From Cladochytrium replicatum (Eukaryota; Chytridiomycota; Chytridiomycetes; Cladochytriales; Cladochytriaceae), in the NCBI GenBank assembly GCA_025526935.1, contig JAHLKD010000037.1:186001-250000 (forward strand): a DNA stretch of 64,000 nt, written 5' to 3'. Numbering within the stretch: the first letter of the stretch is position 1; each line of letters begins with the position of its first letter. Shown here piece by piece: positions 51,131 to 63,231 of this stretch. Below the pieces are notes generated by a model, which saw nothing but the letters and a program-made list of their open reading frames with translations, ran no database searches and had not been told where the DNA came from. The position numbers and the translations under genes were made by a program.

Positions 51131-52492
51131 TTAATTCTTTTTGTCTTTCAAAAAATTTTCCAGCGCCTCCTCGCTTCTCATCGTTTCTGAAGGTTTCTTT
51201 CCCCACCACACTCCTCTCCGATCATGAAAACCTGTCTGATCCACTCTGACTCCATCTCCAACCGCAAGATACCCCACTGACGCCGCGCACACGCAATTGA
51301 CACCAAAGCAAGCCGAGTATTTGTCCCCCTTGTCCACTCTCCTGAATTTCATCAGAGTCTTCAGTGGCTCAGTCCGCATAACACCTTTCTGTATGTCCAC
51401 GTTGGGCATCTGGCATCGCGTGCAGCGCGAGCACACAAAAAGTTCCAATGCTGGGCGAGAGGAAGTTGCCGGCGGAATGAAGTGGAGTTGTAGGATGGTG
51501 TCTTCGTAGAAAGGCGTGGGCACGTTGCGGACCACGATGTTGGGACGGAAGTTGTGAATATTGAGGGATTTGACGTCCGGCGAGAGCGAACCGCTTGCTA
51601 GGCGAGAATTGAGCTCCGAGAGGGATTCTTCGGAGCAGAGGAGGAACGGGTATCCATCCGCAAACGCGGTCTACGACGAGCATAAAAAACGTGTAAGAGG
51701 AAAGATGAATTGCGTTAGGGGTATTTATAAGCACCTGCGGATCGTCATCGAACAAGTTTCGCGATGGTACGTGTTTGGCGGTGAGCGGACGGATCACGTC
51801 GTTGTTTTTGGAAATGATTCGCGCTGGGAAGCCGAGGTACTCCGAGACCCATGCGGCAGCTTCATCCCCTTGGTCGAATCCAACGACGGGTTTCCCCCAC
51901 ACCTCTGAACGAACCTCTCTTCGTCGAACACCGCCGTCGGAACCCTTGAATGGGATCACGAGGTCTCTAGCCATTCCTGGAGCTTTCAGAACCATGCGCC
52001 CTTTGCTATTGTACAGATCGTTCCAGTTTAACACAGAGTTTCCGTTTCGCAGTCCTTCGACTGCGAGCGCAGTTCCGTCGGGACCGACAATCTCCAGACG
52101 GGGCTCGATGAGAACCATGTTCGGATTTTCACGCTGTGTTACAAATTTGTAATCTTCGGTGTCGGACACGATCATCCAGAAGCGGTCAAGTTCGAACCCA
52201 TCTGTGGAAACAACATGTCAGCACAACCTTGAGTACTGCGATAACGTACTCTTGTCGATGGGCCACTGATTAACCCGTATTCCTCTGCAGCTTTTCACGG
52301 GCTAGAGATTATGAGAGACGTCAATGGTAAAAGCAAAAACAAATTAATGCAATTGCATACGTAAATATAGATTGCGGAAACGTCAATGTTCTTTGGAGAT
52401 GCGGTGATGCTACTCTGCCATTTGAAAGCGAAGGTAGCGATGATGCGAACCCACAGCCATTCGAGGAAGGCAAAGAGCGAAAAGTTGTCCAT
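51131..52492 (-). CDS. MOSC-domain (mARC-like) molybdenum-cofactor sulfurase-type protein, four exons
   Basis: mARC-type proteins are membrane-anchored molybdoenzymes that reduce N-hydroxylated compounds with electrons from cytochrome b5. The model is complement(join(51131-51670, 51735-52201, 52250-52301, 52361-52492)), 396 residues. The N-terminal ~25 residues are hydrophobic (FAFLEWLWVRIIATFAF), a likely anchor. The MOSC N-domain follows: AIYIYPVKSCRGI, GFELDRFWMIV, FVTQRENPNMVLIEP. The MOSC domain has FADGYPFLLCSEESL, NFRPNIVV, the Cys/pterin region LFVCSRCTRCQMPNVD, and KYSACFGVNCV. The conserved Cys that ligates molybdenum in this family is plausibly in CSRCTRC. A functional link to the cytochrome-b5-type fusion next door is conceivable but only inferred. 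Confidence 0.88.
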
Positions 52493-52950: not shown

Positions 52951-55900
52951 ATGCCCTCGATACCGCACCTAATGGCCCTTGCGGCGCTTCTCCTGCCTGC
53001 CATCGCTGTCCAGAATACCGCCCCGCCTTCCTACAGATCCATACAGCTCGCCCAGTTCAAGAATGTCGATGTTATTGACCAGGTCGGCGCATTCCGTCTG
53101 TATTGGACTGTAGACAGAGTCGTTGAGCTTGAATACGAAAACGAATCTGCGAGGGACAACAAAGCCTCGACGCCTGTCTCTTCTTCGGCTTCGCGGACGA
53201 GAACCACATCTCCACGCACGTCAAATCGTGCTACAACTACGAGTTCAAGGACAACAACTTCCACAACTTCATCACGTCCTGTACAGATTTCGGCTATCCC
53301 CGGTATTCCTGGTGGGGATGATGACGATGATGTGCGTCTTGAAGATCCAACAACTCGTCGCACAACCACTTCCCTTACCACTTCGAGAACTACCACCGCG
53401 ACAACTACCACCACTACCACCACCACAACCTCTCGTACCACCACCACTACTAGACCTGTTCGTGCCTCAAACCGTCCCGCGAGACAGCCGCCAAGAAATG
53501 ACGACGATGAAGACGACGATGATGACGATGACGATGATGACGACGACAATCGTGAACGCGGACGCGGCAATGGAAGGGGGAGGAATGACGACGACGACGA
53601 CGACGACGATGACAGAGAAGGGAGAGACGACGACCGTCGCAGATCGAAACTGGTCCGTCGCCAAACTGTCTTTATCCTCTCCCGCGATGAACCCGTGCGA
53701 GTCAGCCTCCACTTGTGCCTCGTTCTCGACCCAACTGCAAGAGGAAAGCTAAGCACCGAAAAGATTGTCTCGTCAAGTGCAGCCTGGACGCAGAATTCGT
53801 CATTGCACACCTGCAAGATCCACCTGCGTCCTCGGCAGTCACCGCGCCGCTCTCTGGTCTTTCATCTTATGTTTCAACTCACTACTACATGCCTCCGGTA
53901 ACGGAGTACAAGTTCCTGTTGCAGTTGGATCTAACTCTATTGATCAGGCCAGAACTTCGAACACCAACGATCGCTTTACTATGACACCCGGTGTTTCGGT
54001 GATCGAGAACGGAACCATGATAGCGGAATTCAAGATCACAAACTTAATTGTGCAGGATGGAATTCAGTCCCTTCTCTTTGCTTACAACCCGCGCGCTCCA
54101 AAAACTTCTCTGAATGGATGGATGGGTTTCCATGACGACAGATACTACCGCCTCAAAATGAATACCCTCCTCACTGATGAAGCGTCCCCACTTTTCCGTG
54201 TCGACGTCGTCTCACTCCAAGCGAAGAAATTCCACGGTACTGGTTTCGCGGTGACTTTGCTCCTCTTTACTGCCGCAGCGTACTTCTCGCGCTATTTAAA
54301 GGTTAGCATCTAGTACGCCTGTTACGTCGCACCGGTTTCTCACGATCATCCTAGTATTTGTCAATCTGGATTTACGTGCACGTCGTTGGTGCATCCATCG
54401 CTCTGCTCCTCGTTATCGTCTTCACCATCGTAATCTTTGTGAACATGCCTGCCGAGGCGGACACGTTCCTCGGTATCGACGCAGGACAGCCCCACACCAT
54501 TCTCGGCCTGGTCTTGATTCTCCTTCTCATGCTCCAATCCATTCTCGGCGTGCTCAATCTCTCCTCCCTGCGATTCGAGTTCATCGAGAACCACAGCACG
54601 GCCATCCGTCTCGCTCACAAGCTGCTGGTAAATTTGATCTCAATAATCATAGTTTTCTTCACTTTTATTTTTTTGAACGCAGGGCTGGCTCACAGTGCTG
54701 ACGATGTTGGCGCAGACCATTGTCGGCGTCGAAGTTCTGTACCCTCTCCAAGAAAACCGCGGTCGCGAAGCATGGTACTTTACACTCGTTGTCGTCACCT
54801 TGATTGTCGGCGGCTTCGGCGTGTCGGAGTTCTTCCACCAGCGCAACCGCAACGAGCTCAATGTTGTAGAGCAGTGGATTGCGAAACAGTTTGGCTCGCT
54901 GTCGAGGAGCAAAAAGCAGCGTGCAGAGTACAAGGACTTTGGATTCGTGGATAAGAAGGTTACGGACGCGTTGATGCACTTGCAAAACTTGGAAAGGACA
55001 CGAATGGGAGATATGAAGCTGTGCAGCGTGGGGAAAAGGCGATTGCGGAGCTAATGAGTCAGGCTTCGGTGAAGAGCCCAGAGAACTTGAGGTCATACAC
55101 TTGGGACGATATTGCGGAAGCGACGAAGAACGGGTGAGTATGGAGCAGATCGATGTGCGCGCAAAACTAAACATGCTTTCCTATGCTCAGCGAGATTCCG
55201 GTGGTTGCAAACAGGAAGTATGTGTACAGTGTCGACACATGGGTGAAGTCACAGTAAGTAGAGTTGTTTTCAGGGTTGATTCTTTTCTATTGATTCTTTT
55301 CTAAATTATGTCACCTATAGTCCCGGAGGTCAGCTGGTCTTATACTCCGTGGCAGGGACAGACGTCACCAACGACTTCTTCAAAGAAGCGGTATGACGCA
55401 ACGGACTTCATGATCAAGGCTCCACGTCCCGATTCATTCAGCGATGTCTCGGGAATGCGCCGCCGACTGCCTTCAACAGCGAGCGCCGACATTCCAGTAA
55501 CGCAGGTTCTCATGAGCCCGAATGCGACCCAACATCAGCAATTCAACACTCAAATGTCTGTGCTCTACCCTGACCCGCAACAGCAATTCCAGACGCCAAC
55601 TTCGCCAGTGTCCCGTCCCCCTCCGCAGGAAGAACAGAACTTGTTTGAGCTCACAGAAGGCGAACTTAAGCACCTCCTCCGCGCACGTCGACCACACGTA
55701 CACACTAAATCAGCGATCCAGAAATTTAGCACCTTCCTCGTTGGCCAGCTCGTGCCGACCAAATCATCAATCATGGACGGCGTTGCGAAAGGCGGGCTGG
55801 ATCCTACCGAGTACCGCCGGTACGCGCTTGTCGAGAACACGTTGCTGAATGAAGGCGGCGCGTCCACGGCAAAGATCACTTATGTTGCAGGGGTTGTTCA

Positions 55901-57227
55901 TAAGCTCAAATTTGTGCTTTTGTACCCGTCGGACCCCTGCCTCGCGATGGCACGCAACGACGATCTAACACCATTCCTCCCAGGCGAATGTGTAGAGATC
56001 CAGGCGAGAGTGAGCTTCAAGAGCCCTGAAACGGGGAAGAGCAGCATGCAGTGGGTGTCGAGGTACTTTACCCCGCTTAGAGGGTCACCAGCTTGCTTCG
56101 AGGTGTACATCAAATTTAAGTCGAGCGGCGCGTTGAGCCCGTTTTTGTGCAACTTGAAGCCCGGATCACGCCAGATTCGAATCCGCGCGCCGTTCGGGAC
56201 GTCGATCATTGCCCGTGCGAACATGAAACCTTCTGGAGCTCCATCGATGCCGCCTATGCCCAGCACGGTCGGAACCACCGGCGGTGTTCCGCCCATGCCC
56301 GACTTTGGATCGAGCACTTCATCGCGCGCAAGCGTCCGCATCGTGACTTCCACGATAGGTTCCAACCCGACTGTGTCCTCCAACGCCTCGCTCACGGCCC
56401 CGTTGAGCTGGAACCGCAAGTACATGTTCTTCACGGCGGGTTCGGGTCTTACACCTGCGCTTCACATCATCCAGTACCTGTTCCTGCCTCTAGACATTCC
56501 TCTCCTCGTGCACACACAGTACGTTCCCTCAAGCCAGGACGAGATCGCGCTGAAACCGGGTGAACATGTCGTTGCCAAGTGGCATTCTTACGACGGCTGG
56601 GCGCACGGACGGAACCTGACCACGGGCGCAGAAGGCGTCTTCCCCTTACCAGTGACCTACCCCCGGACCGTGAAATCAAAATGCGACGCCGCAAAGATCC
56701 CGACCGTCGTCGTCGTGCACTCGATCCGCTACGCCGTCGAAGCCTTCGGTCTCGACCTGATCCGCGGTGCTGCACTGGCCTACCCTAACCATGTCAAACT
56801 CGCTCACTGCGTCTCGCAACCATACACTTATAAACCCAACTCGGCATCCAACTCTGGATCCACAGGCCTCGTCCGCAAGAAATCTGTTGCAGAGATGGGC
56901 GGAGACCCGTTGCGCAGACTTCAGGGCATGTGCGCGGGCTATGTCGAGAGCAACGGTGGGGAATGGACTGGAGAGAGCGACCTTGCGCCTGGCACACACG
57001 TCGTGTTTGGAAGGCGTTTGGAGGGGTCGATTGTCGGATGGGCGGTGAAGGAGTTTGCTGGGTGGAAGAGGGAGGATGCCGAAGAGGGGAAGGCGGTGTA
57101 TGTGTGCGGGCCGAGGAATTTTGAAGGGTTCGTGTACGAAGCGCTGGTGGAGGGGTTGGCGGAGGATGATGAGTGCAGAGTCGACCACGAGGAAGTTGTT
57201 GTTTTGCTGGACGACCATTACTTGTGA
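52951..57227 (+). pseudogene. Copy 1 of the DOMON-cytochrome b561-cytochrome b5-reductase fusion, frame-broken
   Basis: It has the same six-exon plan as the intact copy: exons 52951-53897, 53948-54301, 54355-54627, 54683-55133, 55191-55253, 55321-57227. It retains the signal peptide (MPSIPHLMALAALLLPAIA), a Thr-rich and an extreme Asp-rich linker, most of the DOMON core, the b561 helices, the HPGG heme motif and a full reductase/SH3-like end. Three lesions break it. First, a 31-base deletion at 53787/53788 removes the part corresponding to MGMGFGDSML with the presumed heme-ligand Met. Second, one base is lost near 54959. Third, one base is lost near 55390. The first leads to a stop at 53899-53901. 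The losses sum to 33 bases, but the intervening frame is wrong and has stops. The long final frame is still well conserved, so inactivation is recent, or a shortened product is made. Confidence 0.7.
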
Positions 57228-59002: not shown

Positions 59003-59047
59003 TGCTTAACGAAAATATTCCTAAACGTTGACAGAATGCTAGGCAGA

Positions 59048-62000
59048 ATGGCCTCTATACCACTCATTCTCGCCCTGGCGGCTCTTCTACTTCCCTCTCT
59101 CGCCATCCAAAACACCGCTCCACCCTCTTTCAGATCCATTCAGCTCGCCGACTTCAAAAATGTGGATGTTCTTGACAAGGTTGGGGCATATCGTCTGTAT
59201 TGGACCGTAGACAGAGTAGTCCAGCTCGATGACAAACAACCTCAAAATGAAGGGAAAGCTCCGACAACCACATTGCGTTCAGGGGTAAGAACAACGACGA
59301 CAGGAGCACCAACGAGAACATTCAGAGCGGCGATTACTACAACGTCCGTTACGAGAACAACGACCACTACTGCGAGGCCCATTCAGGTGTCCGCCATCCC
59401 GGGCACTGGGGGTAGCAGTAATAATGTTCGCCTGGACGATCGGCCGTCTCCATTATCGGACGACCTCGACCATGATTATGACGATCGTGAGCTCGAAGCT
59501 GACGATGACGATGATGAAAGGGATGATGACAGGGATGATGAAAGGGACGACCGCCGCAGGAGGAAGCTGACCCGTCGCCAAACGGTCTCAACCTTATCCG
59601 ATGATAGTCCATTACGAGTCAACCTCCACCTATGCCTCGTCCTTGACCCAACTGCAAAAGGCAAGCTAACTGCAGAAAAGATCGTATCAACCACTGCAGC
59701 CTGGATGGGCATGGGTTTTGGCGATTCGATGCTTGACAGTAATTTCGTCATCGCGCATCTGCTCGACCCACCTTCATCTGCAGTCTCCAGTGCCCCGCTA
59801 TCTGGCCTTTCAACATACGGGGCGTCACACTACTACATGCCGCCGGTAAATTCAACCGGCTTCTGACATTATCTTTGAAATATCTCACACTATGCTTAAT
59901 AGGTGAAGCTTAAGAACAACGATCGATTCACTATGACACCAGGTGTCGCGGTTATTGAAAACGGGACCATGATCGCAGAGTTCAAGATTACAAATCTGAT
60001 TGTGTTTGGTGGTGTTCAACCTGTGCTGTTTGCATACAACCCCCGCGCACCAAAAACATCTTTGAGCGGATGGATGGGTTTCCACGACGACAGATACTAT
60101 CGATTCATGATGAACACACTTATAACGGATGAAGCCTCTCCACTAAATCGGGTGGATGTGATCTCGCTCCAATCGAAGAAGATCCACGGTGTTGGCTTCA
60201 CCGTCACGGTGCTGCTCTTCACTGTGGCAGCGTACTTCTCCCGCTACCTAAAGGTTTGCAAGACACCATTTCTTTCATCAGAATCCTCACCTGTTTTAGC
60301 ACTGGTCAATCTGGATATTCGTGCACGTCATCGCTGTTTCGCTCGCCCTGCTCCTCGTTGTCGTTTTTACCGTGGTGATTTTTGTGTCGATGCCTTACGA
60401 GCCAGATATTTTCATGGGTATCGATGCGGCACAACCACATGCCATTTTCGGATTGGTCTTGATAGGTCTTCTGATGCTCCAAGCCGTTCTCGGAGTCCTC
60501 AACATCTCCTCGCTCCGATCGGAGCTAATCGAGAAACACCGGACTATCGTCCGTCTCGCCCACAAACTCCTGGTTCGTAAGATCTGCATTCTCGCCTCCC
60601 TTCTTCTTACATTCATATGATCAGGGCTGGCTCACCGTTTTGGCCATGTTTGCACAAATCGCAGTTGGTGTCGAAGTGCTTTACCCTCTCCAAGAAAATC
60701 GGGGCCGTGAAGTATGGTACTTCACACTCGTGGTCGTGACACTCCTGATCGGTGGCTTTGGGGTGTCGGAGTTCTTCCACCAACGCAACCGAAACGAACT
60801 CAACGTTGTCGAACAGTGGTTCGCGAACAGATTCGGGTCAGCGTCCAAGAAAAAGAAACAGGGCGGGAATTACAAGGACTTTGGGTACGGGGGCATGGAG
60901 AAGAAGGGGTACGGACGGGTTGATGCGCTTGCGAAATCGATGGGAGTGAAGAACAAAAATGGGGGATATGAAAAGTTGGATGTTGGGGATCAGGCGATTG
61001 CCGAACTGATGAGTCATTCTTCGGTCAAGAGCCTGGAGAATCTGAGGTCATATACGTGGAATGACATCGCTGAAGCGACAAAGAATGGGTGAGTAAAAGA
61101 GTGCGATCAGGATGCAGACATTCCTTAACACTTTGCGTGTATTTAGGGAGGTCCTGGTGGTTGCGAACAGGAGGTTTGTGTACAGCGTGGATACTTGGGT
61201 GAAGTCACAGTAAGCCCCTCCGCTTTGATGCAAGCGCATTTGCCTAATTTGTCTATGTTTAGTCCCGGCGGTCAGCTGGTCTTGTACTCCGTTGCAGGCA
61301 CAGATGTCACCAACGACTTCTTCAAAGAAGCCGGATACGACGCGACTGAATTCATGATCAAACCCCCTCGACCAGGGTCATTCAACGAAGCATCTGGAAT
61401 GCGCCGTCGTCTACCTTCCACAGGCAACCCAAATGTCCCAGTTGCACAAGTTCTCATGAGCCCAAACAGGATGCAACACCAGCAACAACTCAGTTCCCAA
61501 ATGGGCATACTCTATCCGGACCCACAGCAACAATTCCAGATGCCAATGTCGCCAGTGACACGCACCCCTCCCCACGAAGAGCAGAACGTCTTCGAGCTCA
61601 CTGAAAGTGAGCTGAAGCACCTGCTTCGCGCACGTCGCCCACACGTGCACACGAAAACGGCCATCCAGAAACTTAGTACTTTCTTGGTTGGGCAGCTTGT
61701 GCCCAGCCAGTCTGCGCTCATGGACGGCACAGCGGCAAAAGGTGGGCTGGATCCGACCGAGTACCGCCGCTACGCGCTGGTCGAAAACACATTGCTGAAT
61801 GAAGGCTGTGCGGCAACTGCAAAGATGTCAAACGTTGCTGGGGTCGTGCACAGGCTCAAATTTGTGCTATTGTACCCTTCGGACCCGAGTCGCGCTGCTG
61901 CGAGGAAGGACGATCTAACGCCTTTCCTCCCCGGAGAATGTGTGGAGATCCAGGCGAGGGTGACAGTGAAGAGTTCTGACACGGGGAAGAGCGGCATGCA

Positions 62001-63231
62001 GTGGGTTTCGAGGTATTTCACCCCGCTCAGTGGGTCACCAGCTTGCTTTGAAGTGTACATCAAGTTCAAATCGAGTGGCGCTTTGAGCCCGTTCCTGTGC
62101 AACCTCAAGCCTGGCTCTCGACAAATTCGCATCCGTGCACCGTTCGGGACGTCTATTATTTCAAGGGCAAACTCGAAGCCTTCCGGAGTGCCGTCGATGC
62201 CGCCATTGCCAAGCATGTTGGGAGCCGCGGGCATCCCACCTATGCCGAACATTGGCGGCGGTGCTGGTATTCCACCCAGGCATAACGGACTCGGATCGAG
62301 CACTCCAGACTACAGTTCCAACGGTCGCCCCAACGTCCGTATTGTGACATCCATGATTGGCCCTAACCCCACCGTATCCTCCAACGCCTCGCTCACTGCC
62401 CCGCCGACGTGGTACAGCAAATACCTGTTCTTCACAGCAGGTTCGGGTCTCACACCCGCCCTTCACATTATCCAATACCTATTCCTACCCCTCGACGTCC
62501 CCCTCCTCGTTCATACTTCGTACATCCCGACTAGCCAAGACGAGCTCGCTCTGAAACCCGGTGACCACGTCGTCGCCAAGTGGCACTCGTTTGATGGCTG
62601 GGCGCACGGGAAGAACCTGACCACCGGTGCGGAGGGCGTCTTCCCCCTTCCAGTAACCTACCCGCGCATCGTGAAATCCAAGTCCGACGCTGCCAAGATC
62701 CCAACGATCGTTGTCATACACTCGATCCGCTACGCCGTCGAAGCCTTCGGTCTCGACCTGATACGCGGTGCAGCATTGGCGTATCCCACTCACGTCAAAC
62801 TCGCGCACTGCGTCTCGCAGCCGCACGTCTTCAAACCCAACTCTTCTTCCGGTTCCGGATCCTCTTCGGCCCTCGGCCGCAAAAAGTCTATTGCGGAGAT
62901 GGGCGGCGACCCGCTGCGAAGACTTCAGGGCATGTGCGCGGGATATGTCGAGAGTAACGGCACGGAATGGAGTGGAGAGAGCGACTTGACGCCTGGCACG
63001 CATGTGGTTTTCGGAAGGCGGTTGGAGGTTTCGATTGTGGGGTGGGCGGTGAAGGAATTTGCGGGGTGGAAGAGGGAGGATGTGGAAGAGGGGAGGGCGG
63101 TGTATGTGTGTGGGCCGAGGTGCTTTGAAGGGTTCGTATACGAAGCGCTTGTGGAGGGGCTGGCTGAGGACGATGAGTGTAGGGTCGACCATGAGGAGAT
63201 CATAGTGTTACCGGATAACCATTACGTGTGA
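59048..63231 (+). CDS. DOMON-cytochrome b561-cytochrome b5-FAD/NAD(P) reductase fusion with SH3-like insert (1305 aa), six exons
   Basis: The model is join(59048-59845, 59903-60253, 60300-60572, 60625-61088, 61147-61209, 61263-63231); all introns are GT-AG, 46-58 nt, in phase. The ATG at 59048 aligns with the copy-1 start; an in-frame ATG lies 12 bases earlier. Layout: signal peptide 1-21; DOMON strands YRLYWTVDRVV near 50, split by Thr-rich and Asp/Arg-rich linkers, resuming LRVNLHLCLVLD with W219-MGMGFGDSM228, where M228 is the probable heme ligand. Five helices (about 360-555) follow, with His in FVHVIA, QPHAIFG, RLAHKLLGW and EFFHQR, as in b561. The b5-like HPGG is at 650-653, and its second His probably lies in PHVHTKTAIQKLSTFLVG after a Gln/Met/Pro-rich insert. 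FAD motifs are SRYFTPLSG and IRAPFG (about 939). NAD(P) motifs are AGSGLTP (about 1040) and YVCGPR (about 1264). An SH3-like segment (DELALKPGD, DGWAHG, GVFPL) lies near 1060-1110. The predicted role is to carry electrons from cytosolic NAD(P)H across the membrane to an extracellular acceptor such as Fe(III). Confidence 0.88.

Follow-up and report, generated by a model that had tools for sequence, protein, structure and literature searches.

Several described systems lie close to a gene of the chytrid Cladochytrium replicatum that we analysed, located at 59036..63231 on the forward strand of a 64,000-nucleotide stretch of DNA (contig JAHLKD010000037.1, positions 186,001 to 250,000; this whole stretch is the window), the predicted product of which joins a DOMON domain, a cytochrome b561 core, a cytochrome b5 and a flavin adenine dinucleotide (FAD)/NAD reductase. 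Among the CYBDOM proteins, plant HYP1 is described as reducing iron and copper with ascorbate as the donor, and ascorbate is the donor given there for the CYBDOM proteins characterised so far (PMC10784544); insect and animal CYBDOMs are reported to keep a Met/His DOMON site (PMC10691727). DOMON domains fused to a ferric reductase are described for the eFRE subfamily, in Naegleria, Albugo and Phytophthora, and a figure legend of the same article notes an SH3 domain in one ferric-reductase-domain model, M17 (PMC3591440). As for the NOX family, the fungal members are given as NOXA-C and the DUOX clades as animal (PMC9421330), and the DUOX peroxidase is reported to be without the proximal His (PMC4420034).

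Judging from the sequence, we consider it probable that the window gene encodes an NAD(P)H-fed transmembrane electron chain built on a b561 core, NOX/DUOX- or ferric-reductase-like in its working. Splicing of its six exons gives a single 1309-residue protein from the ATG at 59036, with zero internal stops, or 1305 residues from the in-frame alternative start (ATG 59048). The latter is the length given in a first-pass annotation of this DNA, the observation of which, that the six exons encode one four-module protein, we regard as confirmed on the DNA read here. The five introns are all GT-AG (57, 46, 52, 58 and 53 bases), and a spliced aligner, run on the raw window DNA with the gene's own protein as query, recovered the identical five; as the query derives from those exons, this agreement is a consistency check and not independent proof. 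The domain order is signal peptide, DOMON, five-helix cytochrome b561, cytochrome b5 and FAD/NAD reductase. Introns interrupt the domains, and all the domain joins sit within single exons (exon 1 holds the signal peptide and the DOMON start, exon 2 the DOMON end and helix 1, exon 4 helix 5 and the b5 start, and exon 6 everything from the HPGG half of b5 through the C-terminus), so the fusion does not depend on the splice predictions. The features of the gene are the following:

59036-59845, 59903-60253, 60300-60572, 60625-61088, 61147-61209 and 61263-63231, forward strand: exons, from splicing of the window DNA
59048..59107, forward strand: putative signal peptide with hydrophobic start MASIPLILALAALLLPSLAI, from hydropathy
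59108..60100, forward strand: DOMON domain, cut by the intron 59846-59902, from homology to paralogs and heme-ligand candidates
59261..59581, forward strand: Thr-rich then Asp/Arg-rich insertion in the DOMON region, from the sequence (proportion of nonsynonymous differences, pN, 0.29)
60167..60780, forward strand: cytochrome b561 core of five helices, cut by the introns 60254-60299 and 60573-60624, from hydropathy, hhalign and conserved His
61021..61347, forward strand: first half of cytochrome b5 with HPGG, cut by the introns 61089-61146 and 61210-61262, from Pfam Cyt-b5
61348..61626, forward strand: Gln/Pro-rich stretch of about 93 residues between the b5 halves, from the sequence
61627..61716, forward strand: second half of cytochrome b5, HxH[STG]xxA...VG, with the second axial His candidate at 61648-61650, from alignment to a solved b5
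61717..62166, forward strand: FAD-binding lobe with the RYFT motif at 62011-62022, from paralogs and the family profile
62167..62409, forward strand: Pro/Gly-rich linker with three PxxP motifs, from the sequence
62410..62499, forward strand: first strand and helix of the NAD lobe (GSGLTP), from a conserved motif
62506..62667, forward strand: SH3 domain nested in the NAD lobe, from SH3_9 and the family profile
62668..63228, forward strand: second part of the NAD lobe with the CGP motif, from a conserved motif

The ratio of nonsynonymous to synonymous substitution rates (dN/dS) between the window copy and the intact paralog L040 was 0.106 over 1289 codons (dS 1.24, near saturation), and in the 12 of 13 segments where it was calculable it ranged from 0.01 to 0.25. 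The same module order is found at paralogs that share 31-37% identity and have different intron positions. This recurrence in divergent paralogs with other introns, taken with the dN/dS against L040, indicates that the four-module order is more than chance; together with the conserved ligands and motifs reported below, it supports the order DOMON, b561, b5 and reductase as first annotated.

A search of the organism's own genome, 198 contigs totalling 50.5 Mb, found 54 matches at exon level, and 36 of the 83 candidates were scored, so the locus counts are lower bounds. We found at least 20 loci with a b5-reductase module, several of them with the same order, and the window protein is therefore a family member that does not stand alone. 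Seventeen loci belong to the window type, namely the gene itself and its damaged upstream copy, two each on the contigs C32, C135, C80 and C41, one each on C22, C67, C93, C74, C145 and C76, and a truncated one on C21. Three more distant loci (C84, C104 and C19) are known from pieces of open frame rather than from complete models. A tree of 18 rows sets the window type apart from these three, and in it the peroxidase-bearing C135/C80 pair groups with a soluble set (both described below) with support 90/94; the deep order of the tree is unsure because of long branches.

When the spliced protein was searched alone, as the first-pass annotation had proposed, cytochrome b5 was the sole domain above its Pfam cut-off (35.2 bits against 23.7, profile positions 1-54 of 74). 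SH3_9 (28.6 against 30), Cytochrom_B561 (15.1 against 23) and FAD_binding_6 (12.5 against 21.1) fell below theirs, and DOMON (cut-off 32.7) and NAD_binding were absent among the Pfam matches of the whole protein at E up to 1, as was the ferric reductase domain PF01794. No peroxidase domain was among its Pfam matches, and an NCBIfam scan gave no match. Since only Cyt-b5 passes on the window protein alone, the case for the module identities rests on the relatives. Six paralogs were scanned with Pfam, one of them (L051) minus its last 189 residues, and Cyt-b5 was above the cut-off in all six. Conservation of ligands and motifs was read in a 15-row alignment of models, which includes the damaged L039 and L050 (one model frameshift) and leaves out the damaged upstream window copy and the truncated L053.

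The b561 core passed its cut-off in two of the six paralogs (46.2 and 29.1 bits), and hhalign of the window b561 against these two gave 97.3%; at C84 and C104 it stayed below the cut-off (16.1 and 15.3 bits). The codons of the four candidate heme His begin at 60185, 60324, 60438 and 60561, and all four His are kept in the 11 covered rows. Their spacing, 31/38/41, resembles the 34/33/36 of plant HYP1 (PMC10784544). Charge analysis found the inner loops between the five helices to be more basic; with the signal peptide and the five helices, this suggests that DOMON lies outside and that b5 and the reductase are cytosolic.

In the DOMON domain the heme-ligand candidates are a Met (59729-59731) and a His (60083-60085), both kept in all 10 covered rows. 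The DOMON profile matched, at E up to 1, the DOMON regions of 7/7 family members scanned, and it exceeded the cut-off at C135 (33.8 bits in L041; 36.9 in another scan), C80 (36.6) and C84 (70.1). The Thr/Asp-rich insertion is the least conserved and fastest-changing segment of the gene (the pN given above, with dS saturated, is against L040); it differs among the copies and may be a glycosylated or metal-binding stretch. Elsewhere in the genome, DOMON matches form clusters, five on C82 and three on C130.

Cytochrome b5 is split. Ordinary b5 has about 24 residues from HPGG to the second axial His; the window protein has 129, and the family 95-129. At the sisters C84 and C104 the second His follows HPGG by 46 and 47 residues, and at C19 by 124 if the frame is read unbroken, or by 46 with an intron placed by the aligner. 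Both b5 His, that of HPGG and the later one of HxH[STG], are kept in 15/15 models. With the insertion taken out, the b5 profile aligned nearly end to end with the solved b5 7bwh (E 1.4e-9), the late His falling on the canonical His. Likewise, with the insertion removed, the Cyt-b5 profile was covered to 73 of 74 positions in three constructs (45.7, 41.5 and 43.4 bits; a C84 construct that retained its shorter insertion was matched only to position 56). Controls with a scrambled second half scored 40.3, 39.6 and 39.3 bits, a weak comparison, with one hand-made scramble each, two of the three differing from a true shuffle by one letter and the third pair having its first three letters mistyped, outside the matched stretch. 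We give more weight to the alignment with the solved b5 than to the scrambles. We also considered a heme-free b5 that had lost its second ligand, and rejected it: the window protein and 13 of the 15 fetched models have a GHS-like helix with its His 95-129 residues past HPGG. Of the other two models, L040 shows the motif when aligned (one letter off the pattern) and L053 is truncated. In a search for relatives in prokaryotes or viruses, a 58-residue b5 profile picked 114 stretches in GTDB contigs and 26 in IMG/VR by pattern, of which tblastn at 1e-3 confirmed 0.

For the reductase, FAD_binding_6 passed in three of the six paralogs (34.4, 34.9 and 23.3 bits), and the family profile, with the SH3 left out, found the NADH-cytochrome b5 reductase 7rom (E 6.1e-12). 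In the NAD lobe the G, G and P of GxGxxP are kept in 15/15 models and the Cys and Gly of the CG pair in all 13 covered rows. The SH3 domain sits inside this lobe: NAD_binding_1, below the cut-off in both cases, aligned with its positions 1-18 before the SH3 in L041 and with 29-107 after it in L048. SH3_9 itself passed in L046 (35.1 bits), the only one of the six paralogs to do so; the family SH3 profile matched the vinexin SH3 structure (E 4.5e-7), and the Trp and the Pro of the binding face are each kept in 15/15 models. For the C84 pieces scanned with Pfam, an SH3 was not among the matches. The linker before the NAD lobe has several PxxP motifs in the window protein, L040, L041 and L042, and a single one or none in the other members examined (none in L046, L048 and L049); because they are numerous only in those four, binding of the SH3 to its own linker is a guess. 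The anatomy first annotated thus holds for its four modules and was incomplete, with b5 split, an SH3 nested in the NAD lobe and, at five sister loci, a peroxidase upstream.

The chain would work as follows. The protein, loaded with heme and FAD, would sit as a single chain in the plasma membrane or an endomembrane, and electrons would pass from cytosolic NAD(P)H to FAD and the b5 heme, from there to the inner and then the outer b561 heme, and finally to the DOMON heme across the membrane, which would reduce an acceptor outside (O2, Fe3+ or a quinone were considered). The b561 core and the cytochrome b5 reductase head would replace a ferric reductase domain and its head, and the SH3 of the NAD lobe may gate the reductase through a proline-rich partner, perhaps its own linker. 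The conserved ligands and motifs support this path, which the first-pass annotation had drawn from NAD(P)H to the outside in the same order.

A number of results weigh against such a chain, or against its parts. The b561 profile, compared with solved structures, found no b561, only a pilin at E 0.015. Arg residues stand 7 and 15 residues before the fourth b561 His of the window protein (by direct offset, 7 of the 11 members have the Arg at -7 and 3 of the 11 the one at -15), that is, at the offsets of the two ascorbate-site Arg described for HYP1 (PMC10784544), and ascorbate could therefore still feed this b561. The FAD motif RxY[ST] varies (R to K in 2/15, T/S to N in 2/15, Y to F in 3/15, the window protein with RYFT included). 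The DOMON profile passes only at the peroxidase-bearing C135, C80 and C84, and the window protein and the scanned peroxidase-free paralogs gave 13.1-20.4 bits; hhalign of the window DOMON against four sister DOMON regions (three that pass Pfam, and C19 by alignment only) gave 61% over 34 columns, covering only the surroundings of the heme Met; and the best PDB match of the DOMON profile was cellobiose dehydrogenase, at E 0.52. By homology to the DOMON-passing paralogs, the order of DOMON before b561 appears clear, but the window DOMON region itself, scanned alone, reaches 13.1 bits against 32.7, and its hhalign value is the 61% just given.

What the chain would reduce is a separate question. 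One possibility, less likely than not, is that it is dual-oxidase-like, mainly reducing O2 outside to superoxide/H2O2, which would be used by the fused peroxidase in the sisters and by nearby soluble oxidoreductases in the case of the window protein. The genome has An_peroxidase matches at six loci, and at five of them (C135, C80, C84, C104 and C19; loci L041, L042, L056/L058, L059/L065 and L060/L066) an animal-type heme peroxidase lies upstream of the module; at the sixth, C134, the sequence read showed no such module. L041 has the end of the peroxidase (70.2 bits), the DOMON and the start of b561 (profile 1-95) in one open frame, with the remaining b561 after a predicted intron; at C104 no DOMON was found. 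REHN and the proximal FRYGHS/LRYGHS motifs are present in 5/5 of these sisters, whereas the DUOX peroxidase is reported without the proximal His (PMC4420034), and DUOX clades are assigned to animals (PMC9421330). Against a dual-oxidase-like role, the window protein has no peroxidase match, and the distal His looks replaced at C135 and C80 (WGEFIAQ), displaced at C19 and, of these four, kept only at C84, across an inferred splice. Moreover, the genome has 14 ferric-reductase/NOX-type matches (13 over the cut-off), so such an oxidase function may already be covered by these.

A role in metal uptake as a ferric or cupric reductase, CYBDOM/HYP1-like and using NAD(P)H instead of ascorbate, is possible, if on the unlikely side: HYP1 is described as reducing ferric and cupric substrates (PMC10784544), and the acidic extracellular insertion of the window protein would suit such a role, but this insertion is the segment least conserved. 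That the chain donates electrons to extracellular oxidoreductases of polymer breakdown, such as lytic polysaccharide monooxygenases (LPMO) and peroxidases, we consider improbable. There are five AA9 matches, one with internal stops, and cellobiose dehydrogenase likewise has a DOMON-fold heme (PMC10691727), but the matches lie in three places of the genome against the 20 loci of the family, and no link was seen between the family genes and AA9. It is very improbable that two adjacent genes were read as one or that the assembly is chimeric here, given that every domain join falls within an exon and that the identical order occurs at other loci with different introns.

Four of the 20 loci (L047, L048, L049 and L052) had no b561 or DOMON within the 2.3-2.9 kb read upstream of b5, and there a long linker, Gln/Pro-rich in two of them, lies behind an N-terminal open frame. 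They are apparently soluble relatives, with b5 and an SH3-bearing reductase. Their N-termini looked TIR-like by eye; the two of four that were scanned gave no TIR match, and the idea was rejected.

Taking the family as a whole, we see about an even chance that it is a second, independently assembled machine of NOX/DUOX type, consisting of b561, a split b5 as coupler, an SH3-switched b5-reductase head and an outer DOMON, joined in some members by a heme peroxidase, and expanded in one genome to about 16 membrane loci (at least three damaged or truncated) and four soluble ones. It would then have solved the NOX/DUOX problem convergently, in a genome with ferric-reductase-domain loci as well, and the SH3 inside the NAD lobe would act as a switch built into an electron chain. 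Fungi are generally held to lack ascorbate or to replace it; a b561 core joined in one chain to an NAD(P)H reductase would be an example of how b561 can run free of ascorbate. As the protein is a single polypeptide, the chain can be tested in one membrane preparation.

A tandem copy lies upstream of the gene in the window:

52951..57224, forward strand: damaged upstream tandem copy with three frameshifts in the aligned model, from spliced alignment

The frameshifts fall in the DOMON stretch that holds the heme Met in the window gene, in the linker before b5, and after the HPGG of b5, so that this copy looks decayed, or else affected by assembly errors. A second tandem pair with one damaged member is formed by L039 (G000:C32:272000-277600), the model of which contains two stops and two frameshifts, and the adjoining L040, which has neither in its model. 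In the truncated relative L053 (G000:C21:366500-373000) the match stops within b5, and HPAG replaces HPGG. A MOSC gene at about 51131-52217 (reverse strand; two open frames, MOSC_N 52.7 and MOSC 61.0 bits) adjoins the damaged copy of the window. Proteins of mARC type, which have MOSC domains, work with cytochrome b5 and b5 reductase.

Compared with known systems, the window protein shares its b5 followed by a FAD/NAD reductase with the b5/b5-reductase fusions (CYB5R4/Ncb5or and nitrate reductase), which are soluble and not known to carry b561, DOMON or a nested SH3. With cellobiose dehydrogenase, which is secreted, has a sugar-oxidising flavin domain and is not known to have a membrane part, it would share a DOMON-fold heme domain that receives electrons from a flavin. 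NOX and DUOX have, as is predicted for the window protein, a cytosolic flavin head and two membrane hemes, and DUOX has an N-terminal peroxidase as the five sister loci do; the window protein differs in having no ferric reductase domain match, in the b5 that intervenes and in the SH3 within the NAD lobe. The CYBDOM proteins (plant HYP1/CRR, insect CG8399, human FRRS1/SDR2) have, as is predicted for it, a secreted-side Met/His DOMON followed by a four-His b561; the published HYP1 consists of DOMON and b561 with ascorbate as donor (PMC10784544), whereas the window protein adds b5 and a flavin reductase in the same chain. It combines the candidate heme Met/His and four b561 His of CYBDOM, the double His of b5, and the RxY[ST] (with F for Y), GxGxxP and CG(P) motifs of the reductase. 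The eFRE ferric reductases are, as is predicted for the window protein, single chains with a FAD/NAD(P)H head, membrane hemes and an extracellular DOMON, the head in their case being FAD/NADPH; their membrane core is a ferric reductase domain, and their description mentions no b5 (PMC3591440). No report of the DOMON-b561-b5-b5 reductase architecture was among the open-access matches listed (titles and abstract starts; subscription journals and protein databases lay outside this search). A single chain from FAD/NADPH to DOMON is nevertheless already in print with a ferric-reductase core (PMC3591440), and the novelty lies in its b561/b5/b5 reductase version. Our analysis adds to this an SH3 domain in the NAD lobe and a b5 domain that an insertion divides in two. 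It also adds the family of at least 20 loci, of which some are damaged, five bear a peroxidase and four showed no membrane part.

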